In this document: positions 14,593 to 48,550 of the stretch, piece by piece
Layout of the letters: the number at the start of each line of letters is the position of its first letter
Position numbering within the stretch: position 1 is the stretch's first letter
Assembly (NCBI GenBank): GCA_010119145.1
Contig: JAACSU010000007.1
Location: forward strand, 639,869 to 703,868
DNA length: 64,000 nt
Origin: Candidatus Gracilibacteria bacterium
GTDB lineage: Bacteria > Patescibacteriota > Gracilibacteria > BD1-5 > UBA6164
Direction of reading: 5' to 3'
The notes under the pieces: model-generated
What the model was told of the DNA's origin: nothing
Seen by the model: only the letters and a program-made list of their open reading frames with translations
The model's database searches: none
Made by a program: the position numbers and the translations under genes

Positions 14593-14895
14593 ATGCATAA
14601 ATGAATTTGAGTTTTATCTTTATTAGCTTCAGTTTGAGTAAGTGAATTAGATGCCCAAACTTACCAAGAAGATGATAGAATGAAGGTTACGACATAATGA
14701 TTTGAGTGTGATGGAGTTTGAGTTTGAGAAATAACTAAACAAAGAGTACTTGATTTAATAAATACTGTGGACTTAAACAATGACGATTTAACTGATAGAA
14801 CACACATATGACCAAAAGGAGAAAAAAGACTTTCTTTTAAGTCTGAAGATATAATGATTTCTGTTGTTTGCGAAAAACGTTGAACACTCATATAA
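14593..14895 (+). pseudogene. small secreted protein gene with an in-frame TAA
   Basis: One frame holds 34 codons (MHKGIGVLSLLASVG..., a weak signal-peptide-like start), then TAA at 14695-14697 (codon 35), then 65 more codons to TAA at 14893-14895. The second part has cysteines near both ends (GFECDG, SVVCEK) and ordinary codon use with several TGA glycines, so the two halves look like one protein of about 100 residues. No good start codon exists just after the TAA. Explanations: a real nonsense mutation, a sequencing error, or readthrough. The protein is not recognised. A strong promoter lies in front and a terminator behind. Confidence 0.5.
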
Positions 14896-47705: not shown

Positions 47706-47734
47706 TAAACACTGATGAAAATCGGTGTTTTTTT
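47706..47734 (+). terminator. terminator after the large surface-protein gene
   Basis: AAACACTGAT-gaaa-ATCGGTGTTT with one G-T pair, then TTTT. It abuts the next promoter. Confidence 0.75.
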
Positions 47735-47762
47735 GACTTTATTATAAAATGTATGTTACAAT
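47733..47762 (+). promoter_or_regulatory. strong promoter for the 47812 gene
   Basis: TTGACT (47733-47738), 18-base spacer, TACAAT (47757-47762) with an upstream TG. It lies 49 bases before the ATG and fits high expression. Confidence 0.6.
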
Positions 47763-47811: not shown

Positions 47812-48483
47812 ATGATACAAACAAAAACAAAAAAGATTCTCGCAATCTTAGCGCTTGTTGCAGTAAGTGCAACTAACTTCTCTGCAGTATCTGCAGCAGT
47901 ACAAATTGGTACTGGATCTATTACTGGTTCTGGAGGATCTGCGTCTCCTATTATATAGGATGAAGCATTCCCAGGTTTCGCAACTGGATCTGTTTCTAAT
48001 ATTAAAATTAAGGCAAGAGTAAATCCTACTCTTAATATGACAATTTCTGCAGAAGAAATTGATCTAGGTATTCTCGCTGCTGGAGTAACTTCAAGTGGGT
48101 CATTATTTCTAGAAATAGGAACAAATGCACGATCTGGAGTATCTATCACAGCCAGATCTCAATCTGGAGGTCTTACAAATACTGCTGAAAATGGTACACA
48201 AATCAATGACCTTACAACTGATGGTCTTGCTGAAAGTTATACATACAAATCAACACCTAATGCTACTGATGACTCTAGCTCTACAGCATTTGCAGCTACT
48301 GGACTTACAGAAGTTGAGGTAAACAATAATACTGCTGAAAATGTAGTGTATACTACTAATAAAGGAGAAGCTACTAATCTAGAAGATGATGTAGAATTCG
48401 TTGTATCTGCTATTGCAGAACAAGAAACTCCTGCTGGTGATTATGAAGATAGAGTAACATTTACTGTTGTTTGAAACTTCTAA
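47812..48483 (+). CDS. small secreted WxL-like surface protein, interrupted by an in-frame TAG
   Basis: 224 codons in one frame, split by TAG at 47956-47958 (codon 49). Before it: a clear signal peptide (KKILAILALVAVSATNFSAVSA) and GTGSITGSGGSASPII. After it, without change of frame: DEAFPGFATGSVSNIKIKA..., then a beta-rich domain with IDLGILAAG and the C-terminal ETPAGDYEDRVTFTVVGNF, like the ends of WxL and related Ig-type surface domains. One base (TGG to TAG) would restore Trp. Of about 20 glycines only the last but two residues uses TGA; the rest are GGT/GGA, so the gene looks highly expressed. It is flanked by its own promoter and terminator. Confidence 0.75.
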
Positions 48484-48519: not shown

Positions 48520-48550
48520 AAAAGTCTCGCTACAATGCGAGACTTTTTTT
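48520..48550 (+). terminator. terminator after the small surface-protein gene
   Basis: AAAGTCTCGC-tacaat-GCGAGACTTT followed by a T-run. Confidence 0.9.

Follow-up and report, generated by a model that had tools for sequence, protein, structure and literature searches.

In the Firmicutes, WxL gene clusters join small WxL, large WxL and WxLIP proteins, and a dual Trp-x-Leu motif defines the WxL proteins, as one account of these clusters presents them (PMC10599100). CPR bacteria have a pilin of their own, that of the Pam pilus, which is represented by the profile NF058581 (CPR_Pam_pilin_C); our literature search on the Pam pilus found no paper. In donor-strand pilins, an N-terminal extension fills the next subunit. 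Here we describe a locus that can be compared with all of these systems: a conserved gene for a secreted pilin-like protein, which in one assembled genome is interrupted by an in-frame TAG. The interruption itself most resembles the ordinary nonsense alleles and pseudogenes of draft genomes, with one substitution at a Trp codon and the remainder of the gene intact. Our analysis leads us to the view that this is most likely a real yet ordinary nonsense allele, and that no new decoding is involved.

The window, by which we mean the whole stretch of 64,000 nucleotides that was analysed, belongs to a draft genome of Candidatus Gracilibacteria (G000) of 1,283,144 bases in 37 contigs, estimated to be 97.1% complete and 1.8% contaminated. 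The TAG lies deep inside a contig of 739,812 bases. The nearest relative of this genome is that of a sister species, G004. Gracilibacteria are described as a group that reads TGA as glycine (PMC6851277, PMC11452946), and this genome indeed uses code 25 (TGA = Gly): the genes neighbouring the TAG are open only if TGA is taken as an amino acid. This point was absent from the initial reading of the DNA, made from its letters and open reading frames, that we followed up (the original prediction). Under the bacterial code the pilin-like frame apparently ends at 48474, whereas under code 25 the TGA at 48472 is read as Gly and keeps the frame open to the TAA at 48481-48483. The features of the locus are collected in Table 1.

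Table 1. Features at and around the interrupted pilin-like gene (positions in the window)
Feature	Position	Strand	Basis
Gene for pilin-like secreted protein, code 25, interrupted	47812..48483	+	Homologues in 49/98 other genomes; both halves match the family profile
Pre-stop part, 48 codons: signal peptide and beginning of N-terminal extension	47812..47955	+	
In-frame TAG, codon 49 from ATG 47812, Trp column	47956..47958	+	
Post-stop part, 174 codons: beta domain, followed by TAA	47959..48483	+	Fold of the intact G004 homologue
Promoter TTGACT, 18 nt, TACAAT, with TG before the second hexamer	47733..47762	+	Consensus scan, 10/12
Terminator-like hairpin 3' of the pilin-like gene, 11 pairs and T tail	48520..48547	+	
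Partner gene: WxLIP-like protein (WxLIP_PGBD domain), 524 aa	48604..50178	+	PF06030
Upstream gene: large surface protein with cadherin-like domains, 1227 aa	43999..47682	+	PF00028, 34.2 bits
Perfect inverted repeat, 6-base arms and 3-base loop, middle TAG base in one arm	47946..47960	.	

The likeness to the WxL clusters lies in the company that the gene keeps: as there, a small beta protein is accompanied by a large surface protein and by one that carries the peptidoglycan-binding domain of WxLIP (PMC10599100). WxLIP_PGBD (PF06030) matches the downstream protein with 39 bits, against a Pfam cut-off of 27.3, and this match is the only one in the genome. WxLIP proteins have DUF3324 as a second domain and a C-terminal transmembrane helix; in the downstream protein PGBD is the only domain above its Pfam cut-off, zinc-ribbon matches at 457-477 falling below theirs. 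The arrangement is conserved: of 29 homologous loci, 27 have a WxLIP homologue, and a counterpart of the cadherin-like large protein lies upstream at six of the seven loci with long flanks. At one of these loci, that of genome G006 (L028), the WxLIP gene is apparently split into two frames of 240 and 301 residues. The difference from the WxL clusters is that the small protein here has no dual Trp-x-Leu; the only Trp of its G004 homologue precedes Asp-Asp. We therefore do not call it a WxL protein. None of the 47 family members gave a match to the Pfam WxL family, and no copy of the small protein's domain was found in the large protein.

For the small protein itself, the closest described relative by profile is the Pam pilin, with which it shares the span of the C-terminal domain and an origin in CPR bacteria. 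NF058581 matches 40 of the 47 family members at E values up to 1 (best 3.8e-07), and the part of our protein after the stop matches profile positions 3-148 of 148 with 22.2 bits (E 0.00012). The comparison is by this profile, and all the scores listed fall well short of its curated threshold of 55 bits (18.2 bits in the genome search). No Pfam family covers the window protein, and none is convincing for its 47 relatives; a PDB sequence-profile search likewise gave no convincing match. The structure predicted for the intact G004 protein consists of a disordered signal region and a beta domain that follows it (mean pLDDT 85.0). Foldseek and VIA-align both rank chaperone-usher pilins first and also list TasA and CanA. 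The best Foldseek match, at 4.7e-04, is a type 1 pilus subunit chain, and the VIA Z scores are 9.0 over 119 residues for CfaE, 7.5 for CsuA/B and 6.0 for TasA, with residues 69-223 matched. The model thus appears to share a beta-sandwich with chaperone-usher pilins (CfaB/CfaE, CsuA/B, FimA/FimG), TasA and CanA, but sequence identity is 8-19% in most rows and Z is mostly below 8, so that a common arrangement alone may explain the likeness. A monoderm-type cell is expected here. By analogy with donor-strand pilins, the N-terminal extension with its Trp may act as a donor strand.

The original prediction had placed a TAG at codon 49, in frame, with a signal peptide before it and a beta domain after it. 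This architecture held up. The TAG is at that codon; the protein starts like a signal peptide, being Lys-rich, hydrophobic and Ala-rich; and beyond the TAG the same frame is open for 174 codons, with no further disruption, through the region of the predicted beta fold. The TAG at 47956 came first, by coding score on both sides, among 3602 in-frame stops flanked by 40 open codons either way, so the frame is no accident of sequence; it kept that place once stops that precede a start codon or fall within another long frame had been filtered out. A profile of the family, built from the 47 relatives and run against the genome's ORFs, matched both halves of the gene (E 2.2e-79 and 3.8e-10) and nothing else up to E = 10, implying that the gene is one unit. 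Neither a single-sequence search nor the profile search found a second copy in the genome, which rules out gene conversion from another copy.

Homologues of the post-stop part are present in 50 of 99 genomes, our own included. The genus contributes six of seven genomes, the family beyond the genus 29 of 40, the order beyond the family 14 of 29, and the remaining 22 genomes of the class none. From the 59 matches we removed the window's own and seven fragments (G002, G038, G045, contig C24 of G047, two of G064 and one of G065), leaving 51 aligned homologues, of which four distant ones were excluded from the 47-row alignment used for the fold. At the TAG column these 51 sequences have Trp in 47 cases, Phe in three and Gly in one, in agreement with the original remark that one base change, to TGG, would give Trp here. 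We also looked for homologues that end naturally at this position, and there is a stop in none of the 51. The Trp column falls within the conserved N-terminal extension, ahead of the fold-matched part. A scan of named genomes returned seven loci, the nearest 86% identical, and no second strain of the source species.

If the stop were old, the sequence downstream of it should have decayed. Over the 174 post-stop codons, our gene and that of G004 differ by 22 amino acids and 46 silent changes, and at 45 of 113 fourfold sites. With six outgroup sequences to place the post-stop changes, eight fall on our own branch, ten on that of G004, and four are unassignable. Had the gene been dead for long, an excess of changes would be expected on its own branch; these figures therefore speak against an old stop, and in the aligned codons there is no sign of long relaxed constraint. 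The lack of excess change implies that the stop is recent, or absent from living cells, or that the protein is still made. As far as the assembled sequence goes, we would regard the stop as recent, or as an artefact of strain mixture or consensus; equal change on the two branches would also fit a full-length protein made by readthrough.

To place the stop against its background, we compared the two sister genomes in both directions. In the stretches of G004 compared, 589 of 724 genes had a match in G000 at 50% identity or more, and in the reverse direction 582 of 1161 G000 genes had a match in G004. Candidate interruptions were judged by eye, and three of eight in G000 and four of eight in G004 were taken as genuine, the others lying before a start codon or being antisense shadows, with one (C7_513286) undecided. 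Genuine stops thus affect 3 of the 589 genes in G000 and 4 of the 582 in G004, or about one gene per 150 to 200 in either draft. The window TAG belongs to this normal background. It is unlike the typical background case in that the affected gene is single-copy, well conserved and apparently well expressed.

The contig of G004 that matches the window gives the same picture on a local scale: 80 of its 86 genes were matched, with two real internal stops in G000, our TAG and a TAA at 14695, and the reverse comparison found no internal stop in G004 on this contig. Relative to G004, both window stops are changes of the C:G to T:A kind, which is the commonest kind of change. The TAA, at 14695-14697, interrupts a small secreted protein (14593-14895, + strand) that is intact in G004, where the codon is Gln; it ranks second in the filtered genome-wide list of stops, and homologues of the protein occur in 2 of 60 genomes, our own included. 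The third interrupted gene of G000, at 360343 on contig C7, carries a TAA in place of the Glu codon of G004, with the next stop 37 codons further on, and its protein is 94% identical to the G004 counterpart. In G004 the interrupted genes are L230 (contig C23), L210, L220 and L214; L230 has a TAG where G000 has Trp.

The original prediction had also ascribed to the gene GGN-rich codon use and a strong promoter. The codon use was confirmed: 19 of the 20 Gly codons are GGN and one is TGA. By comparison, about 45% of glycines are encoded by TGA in the genome's ORFs of at least 300 codons. The near-exclusive use of GGN is consistent with high expression and suggests, from codon counts, that strongly expressed genes avoid the reassigned TGA codon. 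A homologue in genome G009 with 11 TGA codons is a counterexample to strict avoidance. The promoter claim was borne out in part: TTGAC and an extended -10 element stand at the same place in all six aligned upstream regions, but the local count of promoters is no better than in shuffled sequence (four found, 5.1 expected). A conserved promoter and a strong codon bias would fit a gene that is still in use.

The reading that we consider probable is that the consensus sequence records a nonsense substitution of one base, recent in origin, in the conserved Trp codon of the genome's only pilin-like gene copy. A recent nonsense mutation was among the options originally listed, and it is the one best supported, by the Trp column, the intact remainder of the gene and its evolution, which is as slow as in the sister species. 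If so, the change would strike the sole copy of a secreted pilin-like protein that would act alongside the large adhesin-like protein and the WxLIP-like partner. A single-base change at the conserved Trp codon would stop translation after 48 codons. The product would be reduced to a signal peptide plus about 20 residues, and with such a remnant the assembled cell should lack the pilin-like surface protein. The truncated peptide would presumably be inactive, the stop would be present in most cells of the population, and the intact protein would be expected to form a fibre.

The stop itself would mean little beyond annotation, where it warns how a single base may conceal a conserved gene: automatic gene calling would begin the gene at 48037, past the TAG, and lose the signal peptide. 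The interest lies in the gene, as a single-copy, conserved and apparently well-expressed pilin-like protein that travels with a WxLIP gene. The Gracilibacteria lineage is thought to live on other bacteria, and the pairing of pilin-like and WxLIP proteins is a testable lead on how these cells build surface fibres. Should both alleles be found in the reads, they would represent a natural loss-of-fibre variant that could be compared with the intact form in the same community.

The main competitor to a recent nonsense substitution, possible though a good deal less probable, is that the gene is intact in the living population and that the assembly took a minority base or a wrong one. The draft state of the genome, with its 37 contigs and 1.8% estimated contamination, is compatible with this, as are the restriction of the damage to a single position and the same type of interruption in the sister genome. 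Moreover, of 58 matches outside this genome, 7 are fragments, mostly at contig ends, which may mean that mixed populations make the gene difficult to assemble. (The fragmented matches may also be compatible with tandem copies.) Against an assembly error, the TAG stands deep in its long contig, in a gene that is otherwise undisrupted, and the small number of genuine interruptions in the genome gives no indication of a generally poor consensus.

A more far-reaching proposal, which we regard as quite unlikely, is that the locus represents a separate CPR branch of surface fibres, with the WxLIP protein dedicated to a donor-strand-like pilin and the amber allele maintained, under phage or host pressure, as a "bald" state in a subpopulation. 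A literature search combining nonsense, pilin and phase variation found no paper. The simpler form of this idea, a reversible or maintained on/off amber allele that leaves part of the population without the surface protein, for example under pressure from phage or host, is very unlikely. An exposed, conserved pilin-like protein is the usual target of such loss, and a second secreted protein in the window is stopped as well (14695). Yet point nonsense changes are no known fast switch, and at the TAG we saw no homopolymer or repeat tract and no invertible element, and in the genome no donor copy of this single-copy gene. The on/off switching of a surface antigen suggested by the original prediction thus finds no mechanism here.

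Amber suppression, another of the original options, or programmed readthrough would insert an amino acid, perhaps Trp, at UAG and so give the complete protein; we judge this highly improbable. The post-stop protein is under normal constraint, and one G004 gene has a TAG at a Trp position of G000, but the TAG and Trp codons are a single transition apart, so that two such cases carry little weight. The decoding apparatus argues the other way. None of the 39 tRNAs that ARAGORN found in the readable genome (an Rfam search found 38) has a CUA anticodon, which rules out a suppressor tRNA for the readable genome. The set includes a tRNA with a UCA anticodon, expected for TGA = Gly, which the program labels SeC. 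One odd tRNA-like gene, at C7:441193-441283 (L086), has a hairpin insert in its anticodon loop. The loop holds no CUA, and the gene is not conserved as a whole, with no full-length match in 20 other genomes; it is therefore probably degenerate.

The evidence from termination agrees. The genome contains one protein with a PCRF domain, a full-length frame of 368 aa that has the GGQ motif and a Pro-Glu-Thr at what we take to be the place where RF1 carries its stop-recognising tripeptide, so that the RF1-type factor is single and intact. A search of the genome found no second release factor with a PCRF domain, as expected because TGA is a sense codon. Of 566 stop-terminated ORFs with at least 300 codons, 105 end in TAG and 461 in TAA, and only one genuine in-frame TAG was found in G000 among the 589 G004 genes compared. 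Together, the RF1-type factor, the frequency of TAG as a terminator and the single in-frame case rule out a genome-wide recoding of TAG. A recoding signal driven by a hairpin was also rejected, the 61 bases around the TAG folding at z -1.61, which is not unusual.

Least credible of all is a re-start at the ATG at 48037 to give a shorter protein, cytoplasmic or differently used, for although this is the first in-frame ATG, GTG or TTG after the TAG, the product would have neither the signal peptide nor the conserved N-terminal extension, and by eye no ribosome-binding-like sequence is apparent before it.

Three minor observations concern the TAG and the RNA genes. The inverted repeat around the TAG might mean that the change arose by template switching, but a like change would produce an arm of this length at 39 of 1896 Trp codons, and because these are equally suitable and the test was post hoc, the repeat is weak evidence. 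ARAGORN reported no tmRNA in the readable genome. A second tRNA-Trp(CCA), tRNA-Arg(GCG) and tRNA-Gly(UCC) lie on the short contigs C6 and C15 (L059, L068), which may be foreign contigs in the bin.
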